NCBI RefSeq assembly: GCF_001007875.1
Contig: NZ_CP011412.1
Span: 1,364,001 to 1,428,000, forward strand
Length of the DNA stretch: 64,000 nt
Origin: Sedimenticola thiotaurini
GTDB lineage: Bacteria > Pseudomonadota > Gammaproteobacteria > Chromatiales > Chromatiaceae
Reading direction: 5' to 3'
The notes beneath the pieces were generated by a model. That model saw only the letters and a program-made list of their open reading frames with translations. It was not told the origin of the DNA and made no database searches. The translations under genes and the position numbers were made by a program. Of this stretch, positions 46,171 to 62,416 are shown piece by piece (within the stretch, counting starts at the first letter, position 1; the number at the start of each line of letters is the position of its first letter).

Positions 46171-46297
46171 GGGCAAAGATGCCGGCGTTAAATAGATCGG
46201 TAATCCGGGAACCGACCAGCCAGTCGCCTACCTGGATTTGACCGTAGCGTTCACCGAAAAGTCATAGGTAACCGCCCATCATACCGGCTAATCCTTG

Positions 46298-47359
46298 CTA
46301 GGACTGTTCGGAACCGATCGACAGTACGATCTTCCCGGTATGCTTTTTAGTCAGGAACAGTTCTTGTGCCTGGGTGATCTGATCAAGCGGAAAGACATGG
46401 GCCACCAGCGGTTTGACATCCCCCTGCTCAATGCGCTTGACCAGGTTGGGGAACACTTCCGGCTCCAGCACCGTGCAACCAAACAGGCTCTGGTCTTTCA
46501 GATAGAGGGTGCGCAAATCCAGTTCAACCAGCGGACCTGCGATCGCACCGGACACCGCATAACGGCCGCCGGGTTTCAGCACTTCCAGCAACTCCGGCCA
46601 CTGCGCCCCCCCGACCAGATCGATCACCACATCCACCCGGTTGTGACCCAGCGCCTGGGTAACGCTATCGCCCCTGGCCACGGTCTCCCCGGCCCCCAGT
46701 TCCATAACCGCAGACGCCTTGGCCGGACTGGTAACCGCGATAACTTCAGCCCCTCTGGCCACGGCCAGTTGAACCGCCGCCGAGCCCACGCCCCCGGATG
46801 CACCGGTGACCAGCACTAGATCCCCTTTCCCTACCTGGGAGCGGGTGAGCAGATTCTCGGCCGTGGAATAGGAACAGGGAAAGGAGGCCAGCTCAGTATC
46901 GGTGAGGGAACAGGTGATACTGTGGGCGTGCCGGGAAGCAACCACGGTGTACTCGGCGAATCCACCATCACATTCAGATCCCAGATACCAGGGCCGGGAG
47001 AGAGCCTGACTGTTCACCTCCCACAGGCAGGGTTCAACCAGAACCCGCTCACCGATCCGCTCTTTACTGATGTTTTCACCCACCGCCACAATATAACCGC
47101 AGACATCGGCGCCCTGAATGAGCGGGAACTTGATCGGGTCTCCGGTCCAGGCGGCGTCTTCGCTGGCCCCATCCCCCTTTGAATACCAGCCGATACGGGT
47201 ATTGATATCGGTGTTGTTGACACCGGCCGCCGACACCTTGATAACCACGTCATTGGCGGTTGGCTGGGGTACCGGAATATCATGACGCAGTTCCAGCTTT
47301 TCAAATCCGCCATGTCCGGTAAGCCAGACACCATGCATGGTTTTGGGTAAATTATTCAT
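46298..47359 (-). CDS. MDR-superfamily zinc-type alcohol dehydrogenase-like oxidoreductase
   Basis: A 353-residue medium-chain dehydrogenase/reductase. The N-terminal GroES-like domain has VIKVSAAGVNNTDINTRIGWY, and the nucleotide domain has LVTGASGGVGSAAVQLAVARGAEVIAVT, an NADPH-type motif. The Asn in place of a catalytic zinc-ligand Cys (GVNNTD) resembles quinone oxidoreductases rather than zinc alcohol dehydrogenases. Substrate unknown. Confidence 0.85.
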   Translation of the reverse strand: MNNLPKTMHGVWLTGHGGFEKLELRHDIPVPQPTANDVVIKVSAAGVNNTDINTRIGWYSKGDGASEDAAWTGDPIKFPLIQGADVCGYIVAVGENISKERIGERVLVEPCLWEVNSQALSRPWYLGSECDGGFAEYTVVASRHAHSITCSLTDTELASFPCSYSTAENLLTRSQVGKGDLVLVTGASGGVGSAAVQLAVARGAEVIAVTSPAKASAVMELGAGETVARGDSVTQALGHNRVDVVIDLVGGAQWPELLEVLKPGGRYAVSGAIAGPLVELDLRTLYLKDQSLFGCTVLEPEVFPNLVKRIEQGDVKPLVAHVFPLDQITQAQELFLTKKHTGKIVLSIGSEQS

Positions 47360-47561
47360 TCAGTAAAATCTCTTGGTTGCTCTGATTTGGAAACTGCAGT
47401 TGGGACAGCGTAAAAGAGTTCCGGCCTATTGTAGCCGCGATACCGAATAATGCGAAAAACCCTAGAGCAGTAATCCAACTGGCCGGCACCCGTTGTACCG
47501 GATATGGCCAGGCAGGGTGCGTCGCCGCGATGGCGCGCAGCCTGCCTGTTGACCGGAAAGC

Positions 47562-48227
47562 TCAGACCGCTTCGCCGAGCATCCCGGTCCGGTAGGCGAC
47601 CAGATCCTCGATAGACAACACCGGCATATCATGCCGCTCGGCAAAGCGGATCACTTCCGGCAGACGCGCCATGGTGCCGTCCGGATTGGTCAGTTCACAC
47701 AGCACTCCGGCGTGGCGGAGACCGGCCAGACGCATCAGATCCACGGTCCCCTCGGTATGTCCGCGACGGCTCAGCACTCCCCCCGGCTGGGCCCGCAGGG
47801 GAAAGACATGTCCGGGGCGGGCCAGGTCCTCCGGCCGGCAGTGATCGGCAATCGCGGTTAGAATCGTGGTCACCCGGTCAGCGGCGGAGACGCCGGTGGT
47901 CACTCCTTTCCGCGCCTCGATGGAGACGGTAAAGGCGGTGCCATTGCGACTGGTGTTATCGCTCACCATCATGGGCAACTGGAGGCGCCGGATAGTTTCA
48001 TCGCTAAGACAGAGGCAGACAATGCCACTGCCCTCCCGGATCAGCATCGCCATCTGTTGCGGTGTGATCTGTTCAGCGGAGAAGATGAGGTCGCCCTCGT
48101 TCTCCCGATCCTCGTCATCCACCAGCAGTACACCCCGGCCGTCCCGAAGTGCCTCCAGGGCGGTTTCAACACGGGAATGGGGATCGCCGAAGTGGTTCAA
48201 TAGTGAAGGTTGGTTGGTCTGATTCAT
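47562..48227 (-). CDS. ribB: 3,4-dihydroxy-2-butanone 4-phosphate synthase
   Basis: A 221-residue RibB from [14 protein letters not shown], with GGGAGCAAGCC before the ATG. The active-site loop [17 protein letters not shown], the [20 protein letters not shown] segment and [17 protein letters not shown] are intact. It makes the four-carbon unit of riboflavin from ribulose 5-phosphate. Expression is under the FMN riboswitch upstream. There is no fused GTP cyclohydrolase domain. Confidence 0.97.
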
Positions 48228-48340
48228 GGCTTGCTCCCAATGAGTTCCAGAATCAGGGCGTAAAGGGACATGCCGGCCCGAAGCCGACGAACAGGCGCAA
48301 CGAAACCCGACCGGAAGCCGGACTTGCAGAATGCCTTATT

Positions 48341-48474
48341 CTCTCCCATCCGGACTGTCACCGTCGGCTCCGGTTTCTCACCGGATCTGCTGACCCTGCC
48401 GAAGCAGGCGCTCGCGGGCTTTTCCGCTGAATGCGAAATTACCGCCGGTAGGGAATTTCACCCTGCCCTGAGAA
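48341..48474 (-). promoter_or_regulatory. FMN riboswitch (RFN element) controlling ribB
   Basis: On the minus strand the region holds the conserved RFN blocks in order: CAGGGTGAAATTCCCTACC, GGCGGTAAT, AGCCCGCGAGC, GGTCAGCAGATCCGGTG, CCGGAGCCGACGGTGACAG and TCCGGATGGGAGAG. These match the FMN aptamer nearly perfectly. It ends ~114 bases before ribB, leaving room for an expression platform in which FMN binding would reduce ribB expression. Confidence 0.96.
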
Positions 48475-48601
48475 TAAGTGGTTAATAGTGCTCTGTATGA
48501 GCGGCGCCAGAGTAGCCCGAATCCCCGGTTCGATCAACCACCGGCGCTGTGTGGACGGACGTGTTCTGTTGCCTTGCCGGCCACCGCTAGCAGCACGCTG
48601 C

Positions 48602-49072
48602 CTATTCCGCCATTGAGCGCTGTATGACCTGGCTGATCACCTGATTTACGTAGTCGTATATGGCGGGGCAGCCGCTCGCCCGGGGGCCGGCAACATTCAG
48701 GATGGAGATATTGAATTGCTGAACAAAGTCCATCAACAGATCCACCGCCACCGTCTGGGTGACCAGCGCTATATCGATCAACTTGTAAGGTTTTCCCTGC
48801 TTGATACAGAAAGCAACGGTCGCCTCCGTCCCTCCCTGCAGGTAGGCGTCATAAAAAATCGCCGTCCCATCCCCGTCTGCAACATTCTTCCGGGTGCGTT
48901 GCCGATAGCCACCACCGATTTCAAGCAGGTTATAGCGCTGATCAATCGGGCCATCCTCCGCCATGCGGCCCACCGGACAGCTGCCACCAATGGGAAAGCC
49001 GGCGTCCAGCCCGGCATCCAGTGCCGCCCGATCCGCCCCGGTCTGTCCACCACTGATGATTTTTAAAAGCAT
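48602..49072 (-). CDS. Putative molybdenum carrier-family protein
   Basis: A 156-residue Rossmann-like protein of the MoCo-carrier family (lysine-decarboxylase-like fold). It shows ISGGQTGADRAALDAGLDAG, IGGSCPVGRMAEDG and ILNVAGPRASGCPAIYDYV. Family members are proposed, from distant similarity to an algal molybdenum cofactor carrier, to bind molybdopterin. It lies 158 bases downstream of the second molybdoenzyme operon on the same strand, a context that fits a cofactor role but does not prove it. Confidence 0.78.
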   Translation of the reverse strand: MLLKIISGGQTGADRAALDAGLDAGFPIGGSCPVGRMAEDGPIDQRYNLLEIGGGYRQRTRKNVADGDGTAIFYDAYLQGGTEATVAFCIKQGKPYKLIDIALVTQTVAVDLLMDFVQQFNISILNVAGPRASGCPAIYDYVNQVISQVIQRSMAE

Positions 49073-49230
49073 CGCCGTACCCGGTTAATCCGTTTTCCCA
49101 TCCAGCCACATAGACGCTCCGCCAGGAGCGCACCGGCCAAAACAGTATTTTATGACCCTGGCGGAACAGCCGCCAGCAATGCTCTACACCGGATTATCAG
49201 GCACCAACCCCAGTTAATCGGCGTGGAGGA

Positions 49231-49998
49231 TTATTCGGCACCGGTCCGGCCTGACACCCTGTCACCACCTTTTACCGATAACAGCGCCTTCATCGCTTCA
49301 CTGGCATTCGGATAGCCCAGTTGTTGTGCTCTTTTCCACCAGTACAGAGCCTGTTTGATATCTCTCTCCAGGTAGTCACCGGATGTATAGAGTTTTCCCA
49401 TGCTGGCGCAGGCCGACGCGTGATCCTGGTTAGCCGCCTGCTCTATCCAGTAGATCCCCTTTTCCCTATCTTGCCCGACACCCAGCCCGGCCAGCAACAT
49501 CTCTCCAATACTGTGCTGGGCATGCGGCTCACCCTGCTCGGCGGCAAGTTGATACCAGTACGCCGCCCGACCAATGTCCGGTACCACACCAAGCCCCTGT
49601 TCATACATAGCGGCAAGGTTGTTCTGTGCCGGTCCATAGCCCATCTCCGCCGCTTGTCGGTAGAGTCTGACCGCACCAGCATAACCCGCATTGCCAAACT
49701 GCCTGAGGCGATTGGCCTGACGTGTCAGTGCTTCCGGATCATCAGCACTCTGGGAGTTATCCTCTACCTGTCCCTCGCTATCTACCGTAACTGCTTCACT
49801 GTTGTTATCGTACTCCTCCTCTCCCCACCAGCCGCAAGCCCATGCGGCCGTGGGGAGGTAGATGTTAATCGCCACAATAAATCCTGCCGCGAACCAACCG
49901 CTTCGCCGGCCGTTCCAGCCGTCTCTTCTGTCGGTTCGTTCCCGTTGCTTCACTGAAGTGGCCAATGACGCTGACGTGTTAGTAGGCTCGCGGCTCAC
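49231..49998 (-). CDS. Membrane-anchored Sel1-repeat protein of the molybdoenzyme operon
   Basis: A 255-residue protein with a GTG start after GGAGGGGGAG, a basic cytoplasmic N-terminus, one membrane helix (~34-53, ending AWACGWWGEEEYD) and three to four Sel1-like repeats (~95-240, for example AAEMGYGPAQNNLAAMYEQGLG). It starts 13 bases after the chaperone gene and closes the operon. Sel1 repeats mediate protein contacts, so it may help assemble or localise the reductase in the periplasm. That role is inference. Confidence 0.75.
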   Translation of the reverse strand: MSREPTNTSASLATSVKQRERTDRRDGWNGRRSGWFAAGFIVAINIYLPTAAWACGWWGEEEYDNNSEAVTVDSEGQVEDNSQSADDPEALTRQANRLRQFGNAGYAGAVRLYRQAAEMGYGPAQNNLAAMYEQGLGVVPDIGRAAYWYQLAAEQGEPHAQHSIGEMLLAGLGVGQDREKGIYWIEQAANQDHASACASMGKLYTSGDYLERDIKQALYWWKRAQQLGYPNASEAMKALLSVKGGDRVSGRTGAE

Positions 49999-50011
49999 AA
50001 CTCCCCCTCCT

Positions 50012-50728
50012 TTAACCGTTGCTGTATACCGCTTCCAATCCTGCTATCTGATCGGGAAGCGCGCTCTTTTGCTCATTCAGAAATGCGCGGGTCATCTGCG
50101 CAACCTGGGTATAGAAACTGCTTCTGTTAGCCTCCTCTATTTTTTCAACAAAATCAGAAACCCAATTACCGAGATGCCGGCTCAGAAACTCGTTCTGATA
50201 ACGAAGGGCATCCAGCGCCTTGTCGGTCTGGCCGGCACGCCAGGCGATACACTCCTCTTCATTCAGGTGACCGAGAAACTCCAGCTCGATACTGATGTGA
50301 TCCGGTTCCATCGGGATGGCATTGTCCAGCTGAAAACCGACATACTGGTAAAACTCCGCCACCCTGGATGTTTCCGGTCCCCGGAGCAGCCCTGATCCAC
50401 CCTTCAGTTGAACCGACTCATGGGGTGATATGAGTGAACCGGGTAATAAAAAGAGGCTGGTGAACTGTACCGATAATGATTCAGTAAGCTCATCAATATC
50501 GGTAGTGTAAAACTTCTCATCCAGCACTATGCCGGCCTGGCACAGCGCATCACGCAACGCCTCAGAGCGTAATGTCAACAACATCTCTTTGTTGGGTTTG
50601 GCACGGAACAGGGTCGCCAGAAGACCTAGCAGGGAAGCACGCTCCTGTGCCAGGTCGCCCATGGCGAGGTTGGAAGCGGCAACCCTGTTGTCACCGCTCA
50701 CTTGGGTCATGGTAGCCGCGGTATTCAT
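50012..50728 (-). CDS. TorD/DmsD-family molybdoenzyme chaperone
   Basis: A 238-residue all-helical protein of the TorD family: ERASLLGLLATLFRAKPNKEML near the N-terminus, ISPHESVQLKGGSGLLRGPETSRVAEFYQYVGF and EPDHISIELEFLGHLNEEE in the middle. The ATG overlaps the stop of the catalytic subunit gene (ATGA). Such chaperones bind the Tat leader and help cofactor insertion before export. It is the dedicated partner of the 50725-53250 product. Confidence 0.9.
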   Translation of the reverse strand: MNTAATMTQVSGDNRVAASNLAMGDLAQERASLLGLLATLFRAKPNKEMLLTLRSEALRDALCQAGIVLDEKFYTTDIDELTESLSVQFTSLFLLPGSLISPHESVQLKGGSGLLRGPETSRVAEFYQYVGFQLDNAIPMEPDHISIELEFLGHLNEEECIAWRAGQTDKALDALRYQNEFLSRHLGNWVSDFVEKIEEANRSSFYTQVAQMTRAFLNEQKSALPDQIAGLEAVYSNG

Positions 50729-53250
50729 GCTCTGCTCACCTGTACGACTGTATCCATCCAGCGCTGCTGGCCATTGATCGGATCAGGTGAATTGGCAATC
50801 AACCAATTGGGGTGCATACCGTTGTCACCCTTCCACCAGATCCGCTCCAGATCAGGATCGTCATCCCGTCCACCCGGCGCCTTTTTACCGGAGGCATAGC
50901 GTCCATACTCCCAGTGCCCACAGTGATGAGAGATGGCTATAACCCCGACATTGATGGCCGGCGTCACCTTGGCCTCGGTAACAATTTCACCAATGGCTGA
51001 TTTCACTTTGATCTTGTCACCATCCGCAATCCCCCGCTTGGCCGCTTCCAGTGGATTAATCCAGGCGGGATTCTTGTGGTACAGCTCGGTCAGATACTTG
51101 CAATTGGGTGAGCGTGAATGGATCTGGGTGGCCACCTTGAAGGTGGTCAGGATCAGATCATCCTGTCCCAGTTTCTCATGCTCCGGGATCGCCACCCAGG
51201 CTGGCAACGGGGAGAATCCCTTGGCCTCGACGAGATTGGAGTAAATCTCGAAATAACCGGACTTGTTTACTTTATCGGGTCTGAAACCGGCATAGACCTT
51301 ATCACCAATACGCTGTCCGACATAAGCCTTGTAGGACTTCTTGGTGCGGGTATAACCTTTTGCCATGGCCTCTTCTGCAGAGTGCAGGTGGGCCTTTTTC
51401 CAATCCCAGTAGACTCCTGTCTCTTCATCCAGCACCACACTCTCTTTCAGATACGCAGATGACGGTAGCTCTTTCCGATAGCTGAAATAGACAGGCTTCG
51501 CCGCCGGGTCATGGTAGACACCATGCTTCTTCATGTATTCAAAACCGCCGACTGCCGCCACTTCCGGTGTCATCTCGCAGGAGCGCTGGACAAACTCCTG
51601 TTTTGTCTTATACCCCAGCGGGGTGCCAAGCCGTTCAGCCAGTTCGCACACCACGTCACCAAAGTCACGGGTCTCACCCATCGGTTTGGCACCTGGCTGG
51701 CGAATGTAATACTCGGGAATCTGCACGGGCGAGACCATATCTTCCCAGTCCCAGCGCTCGGAATAGGTGGGTTCAGGCAGAATCAGATCCGCGAGGGCGG
51801 CGGATTCGTCATAGAAGGGCGAACAGACAACAAAGTAGGGAATCAGCGATTCATCTTTCAGTATGTCGATGTTCTCCTGGGTCTCGCCGTTGGCATAAAC
51901 CGGCGTGTACTTATAGGTCAGATAGATCTCGGGCCGGCCTGCACTGCCATCCTTGATCATCTTCAGGATGTTGTGACTCATGTGATGGGTTGGAAAAGCG
52001 GCCGCACCTTTCGGACCATCCATAAGGGCCAGCTTGCGCGCTTTGGGCAGGTTCTTTGGACCTTTCGGATAGTGCCACTTGGGACCCACTGCCTTGCACC
52101 GGCCGCCGGGGTTATCGATATTTCCGGTGATGGCGGCCAGGGTCTGCAATGCCCGCTCCGTGTCGTTGCCATTGAAGTGTGCAATAGCCCCGCGATAGCT
52201 GATGGCACAGGCTGGATGGGTCGAAGCAAATTCCCGTGCGATGCGCCGGATACTGGCTGCCGGTACACCGCTGATCTTCTCCGCCCACTCCGGCGTGTAT
52301 TGTGCAAAATGGGCCTTCAGCGCAGCGACCTTTTCATCCAGACCGGCATCATGGTTCTTTGTGACCTTGCAGAACCGAAGGAACTTTTCTCCTTCGCCCT
52401 TGTAGAGATCCTCTGACATAACTACGTTGCACATCGCCAGAATCACCGCCAGATCGGTTCCGGGTTTGACCGGCACCCACTCCGAGGATTTGGCCGCCGT
52501 ATTGGAGAGGCGCACATCAAAGGTGACCATGCGGACGTTCCGCTCCGCCATGGCCCGTATCAGACGATGGGAAGTGGGAATGTGGTTTGTACCGGCTTCA
52601 AATACATTGGATCCGAAGTTGATCACGAACCGGGTATTGTCAAAGTCCCAAGTATCGTAGTGACCGCCCCAGGTGAGTTCCTGGGCAGTCCACTTGCCCC
52701 CTTCACAAATCGAGGTATGGTCACCGATAGTTGCAGTTCCAACCGTTGCCAGAAACGTCTTTACCATCTTGCTGGTTGACGATTTCATCCGGCCATAATG
52801 GAACATGAATTTTTCCGGCTCGCCCCTGTCTTTCAGCGTCTGAATACGGGCAGCCAGCTCGGTCAGTGCTTCATCCCAGGAGACCTGTTTCCATTTACCT
52901 TCACCACGGGCGCCGACCCGCTTCATCGGGTAAAGAATCCGGTCCGGATCGTTGGGCTGATTGACGCCACCCTGACCCTTTGCACACATCACACCTTCGG
53001 TACGAATGGAGTTCATCTGCCCTTCGATTTTGACAATACGTCCATCCTCCACATAAGTGACATTGGGACAGCGGGTAACACACTGGTAACAGGCACTGGG
53101 TACTGCTTTCCGTTCCCGGCCGGTCTGGTATGAAAAGTCCTTATTGCCCCAGGCACGCATCTCTTCTGCCTTGGTCATCACCGCAGTACCAGAGAGGCCG
53201 GCTGCGGCCGAGACAGCGCCCAATTTCAGAAAGTTTCTACGATTCAACAT
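50725..53250 (-). CDS. Tat-exported molybdopterin oxidoreductase catalytic subunit (Psr/Phs/Ttr/Arr-like)
   Basis: An 841-residue DMSO-reductase-family protein. MLNRRNFLKLGAVSAAAG is a Tat signal, chosen over an upstream in-frame extension because GAGGGG precedes it. Cys-x2-Cys-x3-Cys-x27-Cys (ACYQCVTRC to VMCAKG) binds a 4Fe-4S cluster. The likely Mo ligand is Cys in GDHTSICEGGKW. The C-terminal cofactor domain has ISHHCGHWEYGRYASGKK. Size is closer to ArrA/ArxA/SrdA-type enzymes than to ~760-residue PsrA/PhsA. I do not see the GRGWG or RGRY motifs described for ArxA and ArrA. The physiological oxyanion substrate is unresolved. Confidence 0.88.
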   Translation of the reverse strand: MLNRRNFLKLGAVSAAAGLSGTAVMTKAEEMRAWGNKDFSYQTGRERKAVPSACYQCVTRCPNVTYVEDGRIVKIEGQMNSIRTEGVMCAKGQGGVNQPNDPDRILYPMKRVGARGEGKWKQVSWDEALTELAARIQTLKDRGEPEKFMFHYGRMKSSTSKMVKTFLATVGTATIGDHTSICEGGKWTAQELTWGGHYDTWDFDNTRFVINFGSNVFEAGTNHIPTSHRLIRAMAERNVRMVTFDVRLSNTAAKSSEWVPVKPGTDLAVILAMCNVVMSEDLYKGEGEKFLRFCKVTKNHDAGLDEKVAALKAHFAQYTPEWAEKISGVPAASIRRIAREFASTHPACAISYRGAIAHFNGNDTERALQTLAAITGNIDNPGGRCKAVGPKWHYPKGPKNLPKARKLALMDGPKGAAAFPTHHMSHNILKMIKDGSAGRPEIYLTYKYTPVYANGETQENIDILKDESLIPYFVVCSPFYDESAALADLILPEPTYSERWDWEDMVSPVQIPEYYIRQPGAKPMGETRDFGDVVCELAERLGTPLGYKTKQEFVQRSCEMTPEVAAVGGFEYMKKHGVYHDPAAKPVYFSYRKELPSSAYLKESVVLDEETGVYWDWKKAHLHSAEEAMAKGYTRTKKSYKAYVGQRIGDKVYAGFRPDKVNKSGYFEIYSNLVEAKGFSPLPAWVAIPEHEKLGQDDLILTTFKVATQIHSRSPNCKYLTELYHKNPAWINPLEAAKRGIADGDKIKVKSAIGEIVTEAKVTPAINVGVIAISHHCGHWEYGRYASGKKAPGGRDDDPDLERIWWKGDNGMHPNWLIANSPDPINGQQRWMDTVVQVSRA

Positions 53251-53260
53251 GACTATCCCC

Positions 53261-54214
53261 TCAAATTCCGGTAGGGCCAGTAACCTGGCCAGCAATGACG
53301 ACGATGTAGCGCAACATGAATCCACCGACCAATACGAGTGCGCAGATTACTATCTCCATCGTGCGTGGTATCGAGTACTCCTTCTGGTACAGCAGCGTAG
53401 GCATGACATATTTCATTTCGATAGCGGCGGGCAACAGCAGTCCCAGCACCACAAACCCCAACCAGAACAGTGTGGTCAGTTCACCACCCATGATGACCGA
53501 TACGGCCGCTTCCACATTACCGATGGTGAGATGGGCATACATCACAAACAGGAAGATCACCAGTATCTCCAGGCCGATCAACAGCATGTCGGAAGAGCCC
53601 AGTATGTAGCTGTGATGCTCGAATGACTCCTTGCTGATCACCTGCTTGCGGCCAAACAGGGCGCGAACCAACAGGATGCCCGCGACACCGGTGGAGAGCG
53701 CCGACACCAGGAACAGCATGGCCAGAATGGGTGAGTTCCAGAACGGACGGGCCGGCATGGCACCCAGCAGAATACCGGTATAAAGTGCAACCCCCACGCC
53801 GAGCGGCACCATGGCCCAGGCGAGCATCTTGCGCAGCTTCTGCAGTTCATCGCCCGGATGGGCATTCCTGTTTATAAAGGTATAGGCGTAAGCAAGACTG
53901 ACCAGAATAAACAGCGCCAACACCCAGGATCCGATGGACATGGGGGAGAGGTTGATGGTCAGGAACAGATTGATAAAACGGAAGTAGTTACCGGCCTGGA
54001 AAGAGCCCAGTTCAAAGACGATCATACCGGTACCGATAATCACCAGCACGGGTGCTAACATCGCACCCCAACGGGCAAAACGGAAACTGGATCCGGCCAG
54101 GTCGCCACCACCACTGCGCAGGAATATTGATCCACTGACTGCACCGGCGCCGGCACCCATGCCACCCAGGAACAGATAAAGTATGACGGGAAGACCCCAA
54201 GTTAACTCATGCAT
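53261..54214 (-). CDS. NrfD/PsrC-family membrane subunit
   Basis: A 317-residue polytopic protein with eight or nine membrane helices. It starts MHELTWGLPVILYLFLGGMGAGAGAVSG, typical of NrfD-like quinol-interacting subunits. GAGAGGG lies before the ATG, which follows the stop of the FeS gene by two bases. It should exchange electrons with the quinone pool and anchor the two exported subunits on the periplasmic face. The catalytic subunit gene follows after ten bases. Confidence 0.93.
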   Translation of the reverse strand: MHELTWGLPVILYLFLGGMGAGAGAVSGSIFLRSGGGDLAGSSFRFARWGAMLAPVLVIIGTGMIVFELGSFQAGNYFRFINLFLTINLSPMSIGSWVLALFILVSLAYAYTFINRNAHPGDELQKLRKMLAWAMVPLGVGVALYTGILLGAMPARPFWNSPILAMLFLVSALSTGVAGILLVRALFGRKQVISKESFEHHSYILGSSDMLLIGLEILVIFLFVMYAHLTIGNVEAAVSVIMGGELTTLFWLGFVVLGLLLPAAIEMKYVMPTLLYQKEYSIPRTMEIVICALVLVGGFMLRYIVVIAGQVTGPTGI

Positions 54215-54216
54215 GA

Positions 54217-54960
54217 CTAGACCCTCTCTTTCTGGCGGCGGTTGGTCTCTATACGGATATAGATACCCTGTTTAGCTGCATCCCGTTGATCGGCATGATC
54301 CGCATCGATGTAGTAAACCATCGGTTCTGTGCCCATTTCGGGACGCAGAACAGTGGTCGCATTGGTAGCGATAAGTTTGGATACTTCACTGTCCGGATCG
54401 TTTAGATCGCCGAAGATACGTGCGCGCCCCTGGCAGGTATTGACGCATGACGGGACGATGCCGTTCTGCACCCGGTGCAGACAAAAATCGCATTTATCCG
54501 CGGTTCCCGTTTTTGGATTGATATAGCGCATACCGTACGGGCAGGCCTGGATACAGTATTTGCAGCCGATGCAGACATCGCTGTCGACCACTACAATTCC
54601 GTCTTCCTGGCGTTTATAGGTGGCGCCCGTAGGACAAACAGCGACGCACTGCGGCTTTTCGCACTGGTTACAGAGTCGCGGCAGGAAGCTGCGACGCACA
54701 TTGGGGAACTCACCTTTCTCGATATATTCGACCCAGCTACGGGTCTCGCCCAACGGCACATCATTCTCTGTTTTGCAGGCGACACTGCAGGCCTGGCAAC
54801 CAATACAGCGGCGTGTGTCGATGACCATGGCATAACGCTTGGGCCGTGCTGCCGAGATGGCCATACCGGGTGCAGCAGTTGCTGTAGCCGCTACCGCCGA
54901 TCCGCTCGCCATTTTTTTCAGGAAGTCCCGGCGAGAGACCTGGGGTTTTGATTCACTCAT
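54217..54960 (-). CDS. Tat-exported four-cluster ferredoxin subunit of the molybdoenzyme
   Basis: A 247-residue protein from MSESKPQVSRRDFLKKMASG, a Tat signal with GGAGG eight bases before the ATG. Mature-part motifs are CIGCQACSVAC (~57), CNQCEKPQCVAVCP (~105), CIGCKYCIQACPYG (~138) and CDFCLHRVQNGIVPSCVNTC (~165), giving four 4Fe-4S clusters as in TtrB/PsrB/NrfC proteins. A Tat signal of its own is like TtrB. It is the first gene of the operon downstream of a sigma-54 promoter. Confidence 0.93.
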   Translation of the reverse strand: MSESKPQVSRRDFLKKMASGSAVAATATAAPGMAISAARPKRYAMVIDTRRCIGCQACSVACKTENDVPLGETRSWVEYIEKGEFPNVRRSFLPRLCNQCEKPQCVAVCPTGATYKRQEDGIVVVDSDVCIGCKYCIQACPYGMRYINPKTGTADKCDFCLHRVQNGIVPSCVNTCQGRARIFGDLNDPDSEVSKLIATNATTVLRPEMGTEPMVYYIDADHADQRDAAKQGIYIRIETNRRQKERV

Positions 54961-55059
54961 GGGCTTTGCCTCCGAAGTGACTTTTGGATTTAATGGTGTA
55001 AAGTATTTTTTCTGGCATCTGCGGATCAGAAATAACCAAACCGCGTCTGACACTCGTTG

Positions 55060-55075
55060 AGCAATACCCGTACCA
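55060..55075 (-). promoter_or_regulatory. Sigma-54 (-24/-12) promoter of the molybdoenzyme operon
   Basis: On the minus strand TGGTAC-GGGTA-TTGCT matches TGGCAC-N5-TTGCW with one mismatch, and GG and GC are separated by exactly ten bases. Transcription would start near 55049, giving a leader of ~90 bases before the FeS subunit ATG. The divergent genes encode a sigma-54 activator with a GAFTGA loop, so the pairing is strong. Confidence 0.8.
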
Positions 55076-55162
55076 ATTACCTTGAAATTACTTAACCCTT
55101 TGAATATTAAGGACTATATCCACTCTCACCCGGATTTACCGATTAACCACCGGGGGGAATCG

Positions 55163-55178
55163 GTTACGGAATCGTTAC
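55163..55178. promoter_or_regulatory. Upstream activator site 1 (imperfect)
   Basis: GTTAC-GGAATC-GTTAC; the left half is identical to sites 2 and 3, and the right half differs by one base (GTTAC for GTAAC). Its centre is 40 bp from site 2. Confidence 0.5.
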
Positions 55179-55202
55179 CAGGTTTCTTCCACCTGTTTTT
55201 TG

Positions 55203-55218
55203 GTTACAAAAACGTAAC
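55203..55218. promoter_or_regulatory. Upstream activator site 2
   Basis: GTTAC-AAAAAC-GTAAC, a perfect inverted repeat with a 6-bp spacer, ~160 bp upstream of the predicted operon start site. Confidence 0.65.
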
Positions 55219-55236
55219 AAACTGGAGGGTAAGCGT

Positions 55237-56145
55237 ATGAAGGGGTTACAAAGTCGTAACCGCAGAAAGTTGCTTCAGGCCGGATCCGCAATGCCGCTGA
55301 TGTTACTGGCTGGTGGAGCTGGTGTTTCAGGCTTCACCCGTTCCGCCTGGGCCGGCAAAGATCTGGTTCGCTTTGGAATGACACCCGCCTTCCTTCATGA
55401 CCAGTATTCCTTACTGGAGGATTGGCGTGTCTATATGTCCAAACAATTGGGTAAAAAGACTGACTTTATCCAGCGGGACAGCTACCGGGAGACCATGGAC
55501 CTGCTGCGACTCAATCAGCTGGACTTTGCCTGGGTATGCGATTACCCCTACCTGCACCTGCGTCACCTGCTTCGCCTGCTTGCGGTTCCCCTGTATAAAC
55601 AGAAGCCTGTCTATCACTCTTACCTGCTCGTCAACGCGAAGGACAAACAGACTAAAAGTCTTGAGGATCTGCAGGGCAAGATATTTGCCTATGCCGACCC
55701 CTACTCCAACACCGGCTACCTGGTGCCCCGCTACCAGATCCATAAAATGAATCAGGATCCGGAGCGCTATTTCAAAAAGAGCTTTTTCACCTGGTCACAT
55801 CGCAAGGTGGTTGAGGCAGTGGCATCGGGACTGGCCCAGGGTGGCGCGGTTGACAGCTTTGTCTGGGACACCCTGACCATGCTGGAACCGGCATTGACCT
55901 CCCGCACCCGGGTTATCTGGCAGTCCAGTGGATTTGGTTTCCCCCCCATGGTGGCCAACATCTACAGCGTGGACGAAAACTATTTTTCACAGATGCAGCA
56001 GATGTTACTCGCCATGCCGGAAAACCCTGAAGGGAGAGCGCTGCTGAAGCGCCTCAACCTGGACGGCTTCAGCGTTCAATCGCCAACACTTTATGATAAT
56101 GTCGCAGAGATGATGCAAGTCTTTGGGGAGTACAATCCCACGTGA
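55237..56145 (+). CDS. PhnD-like periplasmic substrate-binding sensor protein
   Basis: A 302-residue protein with GGAGGG before the ATG and a Tat-like signal (NRRKLLQAGSAMPLMLLAGG, cleavage near SAWA). The mature part has the PhnD-type oxyanion-binding fold (LVRFGMTPAFLHDQYSLLEDW, LLRLNQLDFAWVCDYPYL, GKIFAYADPYSNTGYLVPRY). It is not next to ABC transporter genes but coupled to a histidine kinase, as in AioX/ArxX systems and the sensor half of TtrS. It therefore probably delivers an oxyanion signal to the kinase. The ligand is unknown. Confidence 0.85.
   Translation: MKGLQSRNRRKLLQAGSAMPLMLLAGGAGVSGFTRSAWAGKDLVRFGMTPAFLHDQYSLLEDWRVYMSKQLGKKTDFIQRDSYRETMDLLRLNQLDFAWVCDYPYLHLRHLLRLLAVPLYKQKPVYHSYLLVNAKDKQTKSLEDLQGKIFAYADPYSNTGYLVPRYQIHKMNQDPERYFKKSFFTWSHRKVVEAVASGLAQGGAVDSFVWDTLTMLEPALTSRTRVIWQSSGFGFPPMVANIYSVDENYFSQMQQMLLAMPENPEGRALLKRLNLDGFSVQSPTLYDNVAEMMQVFGEYNPT
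55245..55260. promoter_or_regulatory. Upstream activator site 3 (inside the sensor gene start)
   Basis: GTTAC-AAAGTC-GTAAC, the same repeat, 42 bp from site 2 centre to centre. It lies within codons 3-8 of the PhnD-like gene, so the coding sequence has been constrained to keep it. Confidence 0.6.
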
Positions 56146-57608
56146 CCCGTTGGCTGTTCAATCTCAGTATCAAGCATAAAATCCCCCTGTGGGGTGCTGT
56201 GCTGATCATCGTTTCCACGCTTTCAGTCTGTAGTGTTTTCCTCTACCGCAGCTATCACAATATTGAATCCACACTCGCCACCAGTGCCGGAACCCTCGGC
56301 TCCACGCTGGCCAGAACACTGATCCCGACCCTGTTGCATGACGATGTCTGGCGCGGTTTTGAAATCGTCAAAGCACCGTTTACCGACGCCCATTCCGACA
56401 ACCCCTTTCAACCCGTGGTCGCCATGGTGGTCACCAAGGAGCAACAGATATTTGTCTCCAGCGATCCTGACAACTTCCCCATGCTGACCGAGTTGCGTGA
56501 TCTGGGCCAGGGATTCCCGGAGCTGATTGAAACCATCACGCCACTGGATATCCCCCCCACGACCATTATCACGCCTGACGATTCCGAGTTTACCTTTGCA
56601 GCTATCCCCATGATCGACAGCGACACCCGGTTGGGGACACTGGTGCTTTTGTACTCGCGCTCGTTGCTATACTACATGTTCGCCAGCAGCGCGCTCCACG
56701 GCGTCATCATCGGCCTGGTGGTATTGGCGGTTCTGCTGCCGATCAACTGGTACTGGGGACAACGCATGGCGACACCCCTGGTGCGCCTGGCCCATCGCAT
56801 GGACGAGATACAGACCCATCTGCCTGAGCAACTGCAACCGGAACTCTATAACTATGCCGATGAACTGGGGCATCTCTTCAAAGCCTATAACCGCATGGTC
56901 GTGGCCTTGCGTGAGAAAGAGCAGTTGGAGCGGGGCATATTAAGCGCGGAACGCCTGGCCGCCATTGGACGCCTGACCGCCGGTATCGCGCACGAGATCA
57001 ACAACCCCCTGGCGGGCATGTTGACCGCCCTGGACACCCTGAAGCAGAGAGATCACCTGGATGAGCGGACCCTGCGCACACTGGGACTGGTTGAGCGCGG
57101 ACTGCTACAGGTCAAGGATACGGTGGCGGCGCTGCTGGTGGAGGCCCGCCAGCAGAAGCGCCGCCTGGAACGCCAGGACCTGGAAGATGTTTACACCCTG
57201 ATGCAGTCCACCACGGCAAAACGCCAGGTGAACCTGACTTTTGATATCGACCTACCCGCATCGACCGCCGTGCCAGCCAGTCCGGTACGCCAGGTAGTGA
57301 TCAACTTACTGAATAACGCCATCCAGGCGGCGGGTGATGGCGGTTGGGTGAAGTGTGCCATCTCAAGCAATCAGGAACAGATTCGTATCGAGGTTATCAA
57401 TAACGGCGATCCCATACTCCCGGAGCGCCTGAAGAATCTGTTTGAGCCCTTTGTCTCCTACCGGGAAGGCGGTCACGGCCTGGGGCTCTGGGTGACCTAT
57501 CAGCTGGTTCAGCAGATGGCGGGCGTGATTGAAGTGGACAGCAGGGACGGAACGGTGAGTTTCGTAGTGACTATACCGATTGATGAAAACGAAGTGGAGG
57601 TGGCGTGA
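56142..57608 (+). CDS. Membrane sensor histidine kinase
   Basis: A 488-residue kinase starting with a GTG that overlaps the preceding stop (GTGA). Transmembrane helices at ~15-36 and ~178-200 flank a periplasmic domain. A HAMP region follows, then a HisKA domain with His284 (ERLAAIGRLTAGIAHEINNPLAG) and a HATPase domain (NLLNNAIQAAG, GHGLGLWVTYQLVQ). The periplasmic domain would contact the PhnD-like protein. Its partner regulator is coupled downstream by another GTGA. Confidence 0.92.
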   Translation: MTRWLFNLSIKHKIPLWGAVLIIVSTLSVCSVFLYRSYHNIESTLATSAGTLGSTLARTLIPTLLHDDVWRGFEIVKAPFTDAHSDNPFQPVVAMVVTKEQQIFVSSDPDNFPMLTELRDLGQGFPELIETITPLDIPPTTIITPDDSEFTFAAIPMIDSDTRLGTLVLLYSRSLLYYMFASSALHGVIIGLVVLAVLLPINWYWGQRMATPLVRLAHRMDEIQTHLPEQLQPELYNYADELGHLFKAYNRMVVALREKEQLERGILSAERLAAIGRLTAGIAHEINNPLAGMLTALDTLKQRDHLDERTLRTLGLVERGLLQVKDTVAALLVEARQQKRRLERQDLEDVYTLMQSTTAKRQVNLTFDIDLPASTAVPASPVRQVVINLLNNAIQAAGDGGWVKCAISSNQEQIRIEVINNGDPILPERLKNLFEPFVSYREGGHGLGLWVTYQLVQQMAGVIEVDSRDGTVSFVVTIPIDENEVEVA

Positions 57609-58936
57609 GTCATCATATCTGCCTGATTGAAGATGATGAGATTCTGGGCGAAGCGCTGGTCGAGCGATTCGAAGTGGAAGGCTATGATTGCGAGTGGTTT
57701 AAGGATGGTAAAAGCGCACTCAATGCACTCAAGCATAAAAACTTCAGCACGGTGATAAGCGATATCAACCTGCCGGATTTTACCGGCGAACAGCTTTACC
57801 AACAGTTGCTGAACGATGGACGAACTCTGCCGCCATTCCTGTTTGTCACCGGTTATGGTTCAGTGGACCAGGCGGTTCGTCTGCTCAAACTGGGCGCGGA
57901 GGACTACCTGACCAAACCGTTTGAAGTGGCCGACCTGTTGGCCAAGGTGAAGAGCCTTTGCGAGCGACTGATACCGGCCACCAGCGACAGTTTCCCCCTG
58001 GGCGTGTCACCCGGCATGAAGGCCATAGAGGCGGCCCTACCACGGATTTCCGCCAGTGACTCCAACGTCCTGGTGACGGGTGAGTCCGGTGTTGGCAAAG
58101 AGTATGTCGCCAAGGCACTGCATAGTGCCAGCCCTTCCGGCAAACAGACCCCGTTCGTGGCGGTCAACTGCGGGGCCATTCCCGAATCACTGATCGAAGC
58201 AGAGCTATTCGGTTATGTGAAAGGTGCCTTTACGGGCGCAGTGAGTGACAAGCGCGGCTTCTTTGAGCAGGCTGACGGTGGCACACTTTTCCTGGATGAG
58301 ATTGGCGATATGCCCTTACAGATACAGGTAAAGGTGTTGCGGGCCATACAGGAACGGCAGATTACCCGGATCGGTTCAGAACAGGTCAGGCAAGTTAATA
58401 TCCGCCTGGTTTGCGCCACCCACCGGGATCTGGAGGCGATGGTCGCGGATGGCAGTTTTCGTGAGGATCTCTTCTACCGCATCAACGTGGTGAATATTCA
58501 GGTTCCACCCTTGCGTGACCGCCCGGATGATATTTTGTGGCATGCCCAGCTGTTCCTGAATGGTGTGGCCGCAAAAGAGGAGCGCCGCCCCTGCACACTT
58601 CACCCCCGGGCTGAACAGGCTCTGCTGGCCTACCCCTGGCCCGGCAATATCCGTGAACTGAGAAACTGTCTGGAGCGGGCCTGTATATTCAATCAGTCGA
58701 CCCTGCTGCAGCCCGAGGATCTTTTTGGTGACACCTGGCAACGGGTCCTTGCCAGTATGGGCGATCAACGGGAAGAGAGTCTTTCCGACTATATTCAGCA
58801 GTGTGAGCGGGATTATATCAGCCGCGTGCTGACAGAAAATGGCGGAAAGATCGCCAATACCGCCAATGTGCTGGGCATAAGCCGTAAGACACTGTGGGAC
58901 AAGATGCGTAAACTGGGTCTGAAAGAGCCGGGCTAG
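57605..58936 (+). CDS. NtrC-family sigma-54-dependent response regulator
   Basis: A 443-residue regulator starting at GTG. The receiver domain (1-120) has Asp53 in ISDINLPDFTGEQ. The AAA+ domain (~137-370) has Walker A GESGVGKE, the sigma-54-contacting GAFTGA loop and Walker B GGTLFLDEIGD. A Fis-type HTH ends the protein (IANTANVLGISRKTLWDKM). All parts are intact. It should bind the phased sites at 55163-55260 and activate the -24/-12 promoter of the divergent oxidoreductase operon. Confidence 0.95.
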   Translation: MSHHICLIEDDEILGEALVERFEVEGYDCEWFKDGKSALNALKHKNFSTVISDINLPDFTGEQLYQQLLNDGRTLPPFLFVTGYGSVDQAVRLLKLGAEDYLTKPFEVADLLAKVKSLCERLIPATSDSFPLGVSPGMKAIEAALPRISASDSNVLVTGESGVGKEYVAKALHSASPSGKQTPFVAVNCGAIPESLIEAELFGYVKGAFTGAVSDKRGFFEQADGGTLFLDEIGDMPLQIQVKVLRAIQERQITRIGSEQVRQVNIRLVCATHRDLEAMVADGSFREDLFYRINVVNIQVPPLRDRPDDILWHAQLFLNGVAAKEERRPCTLHPRAEQALLAYPWPGNIRELRNCLERACIFNQSTLLQPEDLFGDTWQRVLASMGDQREESLSDYIQQCERDYISRVLTENGGKIANTANVLGISRKTLWDKMRKLGLKEPG

Positions 58937-58987
58937 ATGAACGACCCAACAGCGCTATTCCGGGTAATGATGGCCAACCGGTCATCA

Positions 58988-59524
58988 CTATCCAGCGTAG
59001 CTAAAGAAATAAGCAAGCGGCGGCACCACAACCAGTAACACCGTGAAGACGATTCCCGCCTTCCCTGCCACTATCAGATAGCTTTTTTGCGGTTTGTTCG
59101 GGTTATAAAACACCCGCACCTTTCCATCCGGGTACTGCTGTACCCTGGATAGTTGTTTCTCCAACAGAAACTTTGCGTTATGACTGGCCACGATAACCCA
59201 GGGCGAGACCCTAGAGCCCTCATAGGACTCTCCGCCCACGTCATACCGGTATAGCGCCCTTCCCATATAGTTCTGGCCAGCTGCGGTATTTTCAGGCCCG
59301 CCAAATTTATCCACTGCCAAACGACTGAGCTGTCCCAGGGTATAGGGCCAGTACCGGGTTCTAACCTGGAATATCAGGGAGTAAAGCGAAACAATAAAAG
59401 TATACACAACCACCCAAAACAGGATCCCTTGCTTCTCGCCCTGGGCGGCCAGCAGATACATATCCTGCACATAACCTATCAGATCCATAGGTATGCTGTT
59501 TATAGATGGAACAGTTAAGGCCAT
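58988..59524 (-). CDS. DUF3592 membrane protein
   Basis: A 178-residue protein with membrane helices at ~35-55 and ~155-175 and a central beta-rich domain (YMGRALYRYDVGGESYEGSRVSP and VRVFYNPNKPQKSYL), the DUF3592 pattern. The ATG at 59524 is preferred over a GTG two codons upstream. Function unknown. It converges with the response regulator gene. Confidence 0.8.
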   Translation of the reverse strand: MALTVPSINSIPMDLIGYVQDMYLLAAQGEKQGILFWVVVYTFIVSLYSLIFQVRTRYWPYTLGQLSRLAVDKFGGPENTAAGQNYMGRALYRYDVGGESYEGSRVSPWVIVASHNAKFLLEKQLSRVQQYPDGKVRVFYNPNKPQKSYLIVAGKAGIVFTVLLVVVPPLAYFFSYAG

Positions 59525-59589
59525 TGACACCCCCAGGAAGCGACCAGGTAGTCACCCGATAAGTGACGCCAACCTGCATAGCTACTAAA

Positions 59590-59955
59590 TTATTTTTCTT
59601 CCTTTGCTGCCTGCTCTTTTTCTTCAAGCAGATGGAGGTTACCGATGACTTTTTGCGATTTTTGAATCAACGCTTGCTGCAATGCCACTGCCTTGGTTTC
59701 ATCTCCAGCCTCCAGGACAAGGAGCAACTCTCCGGCAATTTTATGAAACGCCTCGTGATCCCTTTTCAACTGCTCAAGTTCAGGTAACTCTTTCCAGCGG
59801 GCAGTCTCTTCCGAATGCAGCCACTGCCCGAGCGCACAACGATCGTGTTGAGCCAGTTCCTGTCGGGCCTGTTGCGTCACCTCTTCCTTCCCGAACAGGG
59901 AAGCAACCGTTTCTATCCATCCCAGATGTCTATCGATCTCTTGCTTAAAATCCAC
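59590..59955 (-). CDS. Stand-alone CZB (chemoreceptor zinc-binding) domain protein
   Basis: A 121-residue helical protein with the zinc-binding CZB pattern: His10 in DRHLGWIETV, Cys in HDRCALGQWLHSEE, and His residues in RDHEAFHKIAG. The charged tail is KEKEQ-like. The start is a GTG with CAGGAG upstream. CZB domains usually occur fused to chemoreceptors or diguanylate cyclases; a free copy may sense zinc or hypochlorous acid for a partner in trans. Confidence 0.8.
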   Translation of the reverse strand: MDFKQEIDRHLGWIETVASLFGKEEVTQQARQELAQHDRCALGQWLHSEETARWKELPELEQLKRDHEAFHKIAGELLLVLEAGDETKAVALQQALIQKSQKVIGNLHLLEEKEQAAKEEK

Positions 59956-60024
59956 CTTTTTCTCCTGATAATGGGGGCTGAAGCCTTTTATACCCTATCC
60001 ATTATCAAAAAATAAAACCTGGAT

Positions 60025-60915
60025 TCATCCCTGTCCCTCTTCCACAGCCACAGAACCACCTGTATCGATACTAATCGACTGCTCCTTGTGCATCATGACC
60101 AAGGCAATACCACCAAGAATTGCCAGGGATGCCAGCATGAAACGAATCGATATAGGCTCCCCAAGAATAATAATGCCTGCCAACGCGGTGATAAGAGGCA
60201 CGCTGAGCTGCACAGTGGCCGCGTTGGTCGCCTTCATTGCCGGCAGTACGGTATACCAGAGGGCGTAACCCACTCCCGATGCCAGTGCGCCCGATGCAAT
60301 GGCGTACCAGACACCAACAATGTCCAGATTACTGCCGGATATCAGCGCAAGGCTTAACAAGGCGGCCAGCATTGTGGCACGCAGGAAATTTCCCGCCGTG
60401 ATCCGAATCGGATCATCCGTGCCTTTACCACGCAATGAATAGATACCCCACGCAACACCGGAGATGAACATCAGTACTGATCCGATCAATGGTGGTGCAG
60501 ACAGACCGGGCAGCAACAGACCAACCAACCCGACCAGCGCCAGTATCAGGCCGATAAACTGCTGCTTATGGAGCCGTTCACCGGTCAACACACCGTGACC
60601 GATCATGGTTGCCTGTACTGCACCAAAAAGGATCAGGGCACCTGTGGCGGCGGTCAGGCTGATGTAGGCAAAGGAGAAAGCAGCGGCATAGACAAACAGC
60701 GTAACGGCAGAAGTCCAGTTCCCCTTCCCCCTATTTACCCTGCGCCAGAAACGGGCAATCAACCAGAGCATCAGGGCACCGGACAGCAACCGGATCGAGG
60801 TAAAGCTGGCGGCATCGATGCTGGTCTCCTTGAATGCTATGCGGCACAACACGGAATTTCCGGCAAATGCCAACAGGGTCAGCAGTATCAAAACGACGGT
60901 TCGGGTTGCTGGCAT
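60025..60915 (-). CDS. EamA-family (DMT superfamily) transporter
   Basis: A 296-residue protein with ten membrane helices in two EamA repeats (for example AFAGNSVLCRIAFKETSIDAASFTSIRL in the first and ASGALASGVGYALWYTVLP in the second). These are drug/metabolite exporters; the substrate cannot be read. AGGA lies before the ATG. Confidence 0.9.
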   Translation of the reverse strand: MPATRTVVLILLTLLAFAGNSVLCRIAFKETSIDAASFTSIRLLSGALMLWLIARFWRRVNRGKGNWTSAVTLFVYAAAFSFAYISLTAATGALILFGAVQATMIGHGVLTGERLHKQQFIGLILALVGLVGLLLPGLSAPPLIGSVLMFISGVAWGIYSLRGKGTDDPIRITAGNFLRATMLAALLSLALISGSNLDIVGVWYAIASGALASGVGYALWYTVLPAMKATNAATVQLSVPLITALAGIIILGEPISIRFMLASLAILGGIALVMMHKEQSISIDTGGSVAVEEGQG

Positions 60916-61081
60916 TTGAGTATCCTGGAGGCATGTCCGGTGGTTCTGAGTGGGATCTGTTCTGTTCCCCTGAGTGGAACCCGGAACAGATTGTCTGCGG
61001 CCTGGTGCGAATAGAGTCTTGAATGGTGAGGAATATGCCTGACATTTTCAACCGGACAACGCAGAAGGTTAATCCGCTTGA

Positions 61082-61747
61082 TTAATGGCCATCGATATAG
61101 TGTTTGGAGCCAAAGGTGCGGATCAGATCAGGAAAGTGGGCCATCAATCCCGTCATCAGGATACCGTTAAACATGGCCTCCGACATCATAATCAGCGGCA
61201 GAAACACCAGATATTCATAGGAGAGTTTCTCCATGGGATAGACGTCGGCCAGTGAGTAAAGCAGGACAGTCCCAAGCACCATGGCCGCCATTGACAGGGC
61301 GGAACCGAGAAACGCGGTACCCAGCAAATATATAAAGAAGTTTTTGGGCAAGAATTTCCGAATCAGCAAGTGTTGTCCATAACTCACCGATACCGGGATC
61401 AGGACCACTAAAAAACCACTGACCGGCAACGAGGCCCATCCCTGACGACCAAACAGGATAATCCCCAGCAGGGCCAGACTCATGGCCACCACCGCCAGAT
61501 CCCAGCCGAACATCAGGGTCATCGTGGTCGCACCAAGAATATGGATGCTCAATCCGGGGGAAAGCCCGGCCCGCATCTGCCAGAAACCGATCAGTGCTAC
61601 CGTGGAGCCGAGAAACAGGTGTTGCAGCAGTCGTTGCGAGAAAAGCCTGCGCCAAGGTGCGGTCCATAACGCGGCCAACAGCCCGCAACTGTACAGGACC
61701 AGACACAGCCACCATGCCCAACCGCTATCCAGACCATTATTCAGCAT
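61082..61747 (-). CDS. Energy-coupling-factor-like (CbiM-related) membrane permease
   Basis: A 221-residue protein with about seven membrane helices. HILGATTMTLMFGWDLAVVAMSLAL and PLIMMSEAMFNGILMTGLMAHFP resemble the CbiM/NikM-like membrane proteins of energy-coupling factor systems. No ATPase subunit is adjacent. A metal ion is the likely substrate, but this is weak. Confidence 0.7.
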   Translation of the reverse strand: MLNNGLDSGWAWWLCLVLYSCGLLAALWTAPWRRLFSQRLLQHLFLGSTVALIGFWQMRAGLSPGLSIHILGATTMTLMFGWDLAVVAMSLALLGIILFGRQGWASLPVSGFLVVLIPVSVSYGQHLLIRKFLPKNFFIYLLGTAFLGSALSMAAMVLGTVLLYSLADVYPMEKLSYEYLVFLPLIMMSEAMFNGILMTGLMAHFPDLIRTFGSKHYIDGH

Positions 61748-61915
61748 GTGGACAATCCTTCAGCATCACCACTCCCCAGCCCTGTTACTACGCCCTGAAT
61801 CGGCTCTGTGCATAGCTAAGCATAGCCCGGCGGCCATCAAGGGAGGGGAAGAGGTGCCGCTTTTTCAACATATCTGCCGGTAGATCATCAAAACGCTATC
61901 GGTTCGCTGGTCGAT

Positions 61916-62404
61916 TCAAATCCCCTGCGACCGGCCAGACTCGGACAGACTGAAACTGCCCGACTCCTCCAGGTTGATATAGGGCAGTATGCCGCCCGCA
62001 TCAATCCGTGCCTTGAACCTGAAACCGAGCGTATCCCGCTGGCGGGTAAACAGATCACTGAGCAGTCGGATACCGCCAAGCAGGTTGGGACTCGCCTCGA
62101 TCACGAACTCCGCCATTCCGTAACCTGGCACTTCCGGCAGATCAGCGGTGGCACCACTCAACACCCGGTTGCCCTCCACCTCCAGGGAGTAGCTCATACC
62201 CTGAAGGGCCAAGGTCTCCCGGTTCGGATTGATCACCTGTATGCCGATATTGAAACGGGGCGCCCGCCCGGTCTCTGCTTTCGGCGCCAATGCAAACGAG
62301 GTGATATTCACCTGGGGCTTTTCATAGCCAGACATCATGCCGGCACAACCCGATAGCAACAGGGAAACCAACAGCAACAGCCCCAGCGGTAGAGTAATAC
62401 GCAT
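61916..62404 (-). CDS. LEA type 2 (WHy domain) lipoprotein
   Basis: A 162-residue lipoprotein (MRITLPLGLLLLVSLLLSGC, lipid on Cys20) with an LEA14-like WHy domain (VNITSFALAPKAETGRAPRFNIGIQVINPNRETLALQGMSYSLEVEGNRV). Such proteins are linked to desiccation or stress tolerance. AGGAAG lies before the ATG. A repeat related to those around the transposase gene lies directly upstream. Confidence 0.85.
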   Translation of the reverse strand: MRITLPLGLLLLVSLLLSGCAGMMSGYEKPQVNITSFALAPKAETGRAPRFNIGIQVINPNRETLALQGMSYSLEVEGNRVLSGATADLPEVPGYGMAEFVIEASPNLLGGIRLLSDLFTRQRDTLGFRFKARIDAGGILPYINLEESGSFSLSESGRSQGI

Positions 62405-62416
62405 AATATTCTTCCT

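Follow-up and report, generated by a model that had tools for sequence, protein, structure and literature searches.

A molybdoenzyme operon facing an AioX/ArxX-type sensor trio in Sedimenticola thiotaurini, a candidate for a third type of arsenite oxidase

We analysed a 64,000-nucleotide stretch of the Sedimenticola thiotaurini genome (the window; bases 1364001–1428000 of the main contig of the 3.96-Mb genome), in which a minus-strand operon encoding a candidate arsenite oxidase, ordered B-C-A-TorD-Sel1, lies opposite a plus-strand regulatory trio, X-S-R. The 4Fe-4S electron-transfer subunit B (54217–54960, assigned by Pfam) has an open reading frame that is open from 55053; its start is probably the ATG at 54960, a codon conserved in four aligned sequences, and a twin-arginine signal was seen by eye. 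It is followed by the NrfD/PsrC-type membrane quinone subunit C (53261–54214; PF03916, 6.4e-45), the catalytic molybdopterin subunit A (50725–53250; assigned by Pfam, alignment and tree), the TorD-like chaperone D (50012–50728; PF02613, 2.7e-22) and an exported protein with Pfam Sel1 repeats and an N-terminal ACGWWG(E/D) motif (49231–49998). Subunit A, with a 4Fe-4S site, comprises 841 residues counted from its twin-arginine translocation (Tat) signal, within a reading frame open to 53325. On the plus strand are the PhnD-like periplasmic sensor X (55237–56145), the HAMP histidine kinase S (56142–57608) and the sigma-54 response regulator R (57605–58936), the last two assigned by Pfam, with GTGA at both the X/S and the S/R overlap. 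A sequence-only reading had described these eight genes, their strands and the GTGA overlaps as a complete oxyanion-type molybdoenzyme system with a dedicated sensor trio; coordinates and Pfam families agree with the identity of every gene, and the description as a complete system, here periplasmic, stands.

Comparable gene sets were found again in other genera, so the arrangement is not due to chance. The closest named relative found is Sedimenticola hydrogenitrophicus SB48, with a catalytic subunit 88% identical to that of the window. A plasmid operon of Azoarcus sp. KH32C (L111), for which our literature search found no description, shares the divergent XSR trio and the B-C-A-D order and adjoins arsC, arsD, arsA and acr3, but its catalytic subunit is only ~41% identical to subunit A and it has extra downstream genes.

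By alignment, the molybdenum (Mo) ligand of subunit A is Cys182, within HTSICEGGK, and Y152, G153, R154, C182, H776 and G778 are invariant across 29 aligned members. As had been claimed from the sequence, both the GRGWG motif of ArxA and the RGRY motif of ArrA are absent; YGRM stands at the aligned place. A C-terminal GHWxYGR motif is common to subunit A and ArrA, although GHW also occurs in ArxA and in two of six TtrA rows, and two aligned PhsA rows are without the GR motif. Amino acid identities are 29% to ArxA, 27–28% to PhsA, 27% to ArrA and 23–26% to TtrA. The structure model (predicted local distance difference test score 85.5) has ArrA (3.2e-46) and Psr (5.4e-46) as nearest, about equal folds.

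For the phylogeny, proteins shorter than 700 residues and all but one of those more than 72% alike were removed (120 to 52 rows); three long MopB paralogues were removed before the first tree and most rows before a 24-row tree, and part of the 12 MopB places of the host genome were placed in the trees. In the 24-row tree, subunit A groups with the KH32C-type enzymes and L015 (100/100), apart from TtrA, PhsA/PsrA and ArxA/ArrA. Forcing the eight rows of this clade together with ArxA alone (two rows) was rejected by the approximately unbiased (AU) test (p=4e-41), and XGRGWG is missing. ArrA identity was likewise discarded, with no (R/K)GRY motif and a position outside the ArrA clade (two ArrA-type rows), as were membership of the TtrA clade (100/100; five TtrA-like rows, none above the curated cut-off) and of the clade (100/99) made up of the three PhsA rows and the single PsrA row. 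SoeA is cytoplasmic and has no Tat signal; subunit A has a Pfam TAT_signal (RRNFLKLG). The deep sister group has support of 61/27 with Arx/Arr, and neither Phs/Psr (AU p=0.42) nor Ttr (p=0.27) was rejected in that position. The phylogeny that the sequence-only reading had proposed for the 841-residue subunit places it outside TtrA, PhsA/PsrA, ArrA and ArxA. Judged by this placement, subunit A represents a lineage of its own, as deep as PsrA, ArxA and TtrA and set apart from the families included in the tree, outside which lay SrdA, SrrA, AnrA and SoeA as a named row. The earlier statement that no single characterised system matches holds for the systems compared (TtrA, PhsA/PsrA, ArrA and ArxA), with SrdA, SrrA and AnrA outside the comparison. 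The unnamed novel lineages mentioned in the available part of Wells et al. (PMC10100899) may include the present one; the open-licence literature, outside which most subscription papers lie, yielded no description of it as an arsenic enzyme in the text available. In the related B-C-A catalytic subunits of L016 and L087, neither the Mo-ligand Cys nor the GR motif is present (HGWIS), and these proteins may therefore be inactive or different enzymes; the match in L013 is similar to that in L016.

From its structure matches, pocket and tree position, X is an AioX/ArxX-type protein. Its best solved relatives are AioX (2e-62) and ArrX (2e-35). The arsenite pocket, in AioX numbering, consists of Tyr88, Cys106, Tyr131, Ser161, Ser163, His192 and Asp210 (available text of PMC5908839), and that of X of Y83, C101, Y126, S157, T159, H188 and D206; six of the seven are identical, including the arsenite-ligating Cys106, and S163T is the sole change. 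Sulfuricella ArxX has S163T too, and its pocket set is otherwise equal to that of X. The signalling loop reads TPAFLHDQ in X and Sulfuricella ArxX vs TPVFLSND in AioX, with four of eight residues identical and Phe57-Leu58 kept. In the sensor trees (one row dropped before the first, four near-kin and four others before a later one), X, Sulfuricella ArxX and three sensors beside type II enzymes belong to a clade of eight (100/99) nested in a larger AioX/ArxX clade (97/93). Identities to the trio beside arx in Sulfuricella skB26 are 56% for X, 47% for S and 57% for R. The likeness of the trio to AioXSR/ArxXSR, noted from the sequence alone, stands but was incomplete: the pocket is kept save for S163T, X groups with ArxX, and the operator described below resembles some arx and aio sites. 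Of 30 plasmid records with an X homologue, 14 were examined; among the 13 of these with annotation, the homologue adjoins aioBA in 10 (their annotation reads "arsenate reductase (azurin)", taken here to mean Aio), arx-type genes in two (assigned by GRGWG and gene order) and a B-C-A operon in one, the KH32C operon with its arsC, arsD, arsA and acr3.

Three operator-like palindromes, spaced 40–42 bp, can be found between B and X. Two match GTTAC-N6-GTAAC exactly (55203–55218 and 55245–55260, the latter overlapping the start of X), while GTTACGGAATCGTTAC (55163–55178) has one mismatch. They lie upstream of a sigma-54-like −24/−12 site before B, TGGTACGGGTATTGCT (55060–55075, minus strand), which a regular expression demanding TGGC passes over and a looser one picks up. 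Its −24 element was matched in L020 and L022 and not seen in L021. Alone, the site is weak, with six matches of the looser expression in the 64-kb window and matches in 6/24 upstream regions elsewhere. Genome-wide, there are five exact copies of the palindrome: the two in this region and another three ahead of a second B-C-A operon (L127). We further compared 80 related loci with the window (81 in total; X called at >80 bits). Paired palindromes were present in 36 of the 81 (mean 0 in 20 shuffles), namely in 29/33 loci with X, the window included, vs 7/48 without X. Reversed-pattern controls are often as numerous as exact sites (own genome 5 sites vs 2 controls, G590 6 vs 6, G598 3 vs 6, G002 0 vs 7), so the counts alone do not represent enrichment, and only position and pairing are informative.

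Among reference clusters, a one-mismatch site lies between arxB2 and arxX in skB26 (L115), and two Burkholderiales plasmids (L116 and L118) each have a one-mismatch pair in the interval from aioB to aioX; scans of a further eight aio or arx loci gave no such palindrome. The AioR motif given in the available text of PMC5335332 shares its 16-bp GTT/AAC palindromic frame with the window palindromes. It matches sites in L021, L022, L043, L127, L128 and the aio loci L119 and L121, and its regular expression found none in L020, L111, L116, L118 and L072. In tandem loci (B-C-A then B-A-D; L043, L045, L049, L052 and L059), operator pairs occur at further places too, adjoining a moaA-like gene in L043, L049 and L059, which suggests a wider regulon.

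Arsenic genes accompany some relatives. A 57-kb contig of S. hydrogenitrophicus carries a KH32C-type operon and trio, a window-type operon and its trio, a methyl-accepting chemotaxis protein (MCP) gene, an ArsP_1 permease gene, arsJ (586 bits, cut-off 400), a gapdh similar to arsJ-adjacent copies elsewhere, acr3 (381 bits, cut-off 282.8) and arsR; its 88%-identical operon is 10–20 kb from arsJ, acr3 and arsR. An island of Aromatoleum toluclasticum has the order arsR-C-D-A-acr3-mcp-RSX-BCA-D, with a KH32C-type operon, its trio and an MCP-like gene. Within the DNA retrieved for the 80 loci, acr3 or arsJ/gapdh occurred in four (L056, L071, L075 and L099). Among 16 hand-picked genomes, 12 had acr3. 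In four of these (G001, G591, G594 and G603) it is no more than 25 kb from an operon for an enzyme of the window's kind, and in a fifth (G590) it adjoins an XSR-linked molybdoenzyme of another sort. These counts do not amount to an unbiased rate, since the genomes were hand-picked, three (L056, L071, L099) for ars genes already seen; G001, G591 and G590 were not known beforehand. Near operons in three loci, and also beside aioBA in plasmid records, arsJ/gapdh can be found. We also observed an XSR-linked molybdoenzyme of 860 residues with paired operators ~4 kb from acr3 (L154:13180-16940), whose best family is PhsA (244 bits, below the cut-off). MCP-type chemoreceptor genes near trios (L139:7592-9634, with no operator before the gene, and L155:4906-5910) recall the AioR-controlled arsenite chemoreceptor of Agrobacterium (available text of PMC5335332).

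As far as searches with ArxA, AioA and ArrA show, we found no other arsenic respiratory enzyme in the S. thiotaurini genome. The best matches of Sulfuricella ArxA were the two B-C-A enzymes (30–35%), AioA scored only 80 bits (cut-off 359), and ArrA had no match at E 1e-100, in a scan in which the controls were silent, but the model matched two genomes in another scan. The second operon, B-C-A-D and of KH32C type (L127; G000:C1:2649000-2668000), is accompanied by genes for a multiheme cytochrome, a rhodanese, two NUBPL/Mrp-type nucleoside triphosphatases, a 4Fe-4S protein and an AioX-type sensor. A distinct TtrA-like enzyme, with a kinase encoded beside it, is also present in the genome. On the sensor profile, this kinase scored 12 bits vs 371–432 for three AioX-type proteins, two of which come from genomes used in training, and in three other TtrA loci no protein reached E 1. 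TtrSR-type sensing was rejected on the 12-bit score.

The system resembles Arx in its divergent XSR trio, Cys-ligand catalytic subunit, iron-sulfur and NrfD subunits and TorD chaperone. It differs in its order, B-C-A-D without B2 as opposed to arxB2ABCD, the XSR part being equal, and in subunit A, which has YGRM in place of GRGWG. With Aio it shares a homologous sensor trio, an arsenite pocket and the operator pairs found in the two plasmids, whereas the enzyme, a Cys-ligand FeS-NrfD complex, is of another architecture. Psr/Phs and Ttr have the same complex iron-sulfur molybdoenzyme build but form 100%-supported clades of their own, and the Ttr-linked kinase is of another type. The gene order of Ttr is B-C-A. 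The likeness to Ttr proposed in the sequence-only reading is nevertheless superficial, given the score of the kinase.

We favour, with moderate confidence, the reading that the operon encodes a molybdoenzyme that is induced by arsenite, exported through Tat and linked to quinone, that belongs to neither the Aio nor the Arx lineage, and that is most likely an arsenite oxidase of a third type. Its basis is the observed gene content, lineage, pocket conservation, operator distribution and ars linkage in some relatives. From these we infer the ligand of X, operator binding, the substrate, the direction of reaction and the electron acceptor. Periplasmic As(III) would bind X through Cys101, and As(III)-bound X would signal the kinase S; phosphorylated R would then occupy the GTTAC-N6-GTAAC palindromes and open the sigma-54 promoter before B. 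The Cys-ligated Mo centre would oxidise As(III), and electrons would pass via B and C to quinone, presumably on to nitrate respiration. The alpha subunit of a NarG-type respiratory nitrate reductase, a possible electron acceptor branch, is encoded at 9677–13438 of the window. The substrate, called unknown in the sequence-only reading, appears less open than that, with sensor and operators pointing toward arsenite.

Several observations weigh against arsenite oxidation. In the window's own genome, acr3 is ~370 kb away. The best curated families are sulfur enzymes: subunit A scores 353 bits on PhsA (cut-off 694), and subunit B 237 on TtrB (cut-off 416) and 218 on DsrO (above its cut-off of 200). 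The strict AioR expression has no match at the window's own sites, and in the arx locus L115 it matches within arxB2 rather than ahead of it. Within the DNA retrieved, a C gene without X or operator pairs occurs in 24/80 loci, ten of them with full 8-kb flanks, so the regulatory argument is limited to the cytochrome-linked type, the KH32C type and the window type of Sedimenticola, Aromatoleum and their close relatives. The Cys is missing from two sensors that are more distant and lie next to related enzymes (L015 and L066), and sensors 48–51% identical to X adjoin type II dimethyl sulfoxide reductase enzymes in two same-genus genomes. According to the available text of PMC5908839, the pocket residues of ArrX are identical, although its ligand is arsenate.

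The type II-linked sensors are central to an unlikely alternative, in which the trio senses another oxyanion (e.g., selenite, selenate or a sulfur oxyanion) that the enzyme turns over, the AioX-like family being broader than arsenic. They fall in the same clade as X and have paired operators (L151:5300-10404, L152 and L153); two of the three enzymes beside them were scanned, both above the type II cut-off, and we label these enzymes SerA-like (SerA/ClrA-like), a designation of our own. Since X-like sensors with Ser for Asp210 adjoin type II enzymes, the sensor family is not confined to arsenic, and the specificity positions differ: these sensors have D210S and an altered loop (pocket YCYSTHS), whereas X keeps the Asp and Phe-Leu, and Asp210 is also kept in sensors beside aio/arx and within ars islands. 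Selenate respiration is described for S. selenatireducens in the available part of its genome paper (PMC5052931), but no other oxyanion tested, among them selenate and tetrathionate, was bound by AioX or ArxX (available text of PMC5908839). A respiratory arsenate (or antimonate) reductase, with arsenite sensed as its product or toxic counterpart, seems more doubtful still. The ArrA-like fold, the GHWxYGR motif and the homology of ArrX to X would suit it; the aligned YGRM would not, nor would Phe57-Leu58 of X, which lies in a loop region that is shorter and more polar in ArrX (PMC5908839, available text), and the placement of arsJ/gapdh near operons and beside aioBA fits arsenate as a product. 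It is very unlikely that the enzyme reduces polysulfide, thiosulfate or tetrathionate under a recruited arsenic-type regulator. The PhsA and TtrB matches, the Ttr-like gene order and the unrejected groupings with PhsA/PsrA or TtrA speak for such an enzyme, while the 100%-supported clades that exclude subunit A, the PhsA rows without the GR motif, the separate TtrA-like enzyme with its own kinase, and exact operators only at the two B-C-A operons speak against it.

Among other features near the enzyme, the ACGWWG(D/E) N-terminal motif is common to exported proteins at 13 distinct loci (the window, L020, L021, L027, L035, L067, L071, L073, L074, L075, L084, L088 and L092), of which Pfam assigns one as Sel1-type and one as PTP-like. 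A flavin mononucleotide (FMN) riboswitch (48334–48479, minus strand; 123 bits) lies upstream of a gene named ribB-like by eye (47562–48227), and Rfam at the gathering threshold returned nothing else in window positions 44000–64000.

The arx survey PMC6549141 names, in its available text, two arsenite oxidases, Aio and Arx. A further one was argued from physiology by Ahn et al. (PMC6620896, available part), whose candidate, a Soe-like enzyme that lacks the Tat signal, is not the window enzyme. We regard as evenly balanced the broader proposal that the window, KH32C and cytochrome-linked types make up a third independently derived arsenite oxidase family that occurs across several phyla, marine and symbiotic bacteria among them, under an XSR/operator regulon like those of Aio and Arx, so that one regulatory cassette would drive three separate arsenite oxidases. 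Together, the sensor and operator predict the inducer directly and in a falsifiable way. Should the window lineage oxidise arsenite, arsenic-oxidising capacity in many bacteria would escape surveys that target aioA and arxA. The system may represent a third route by which bacteria naturally gain energy from arsenic.

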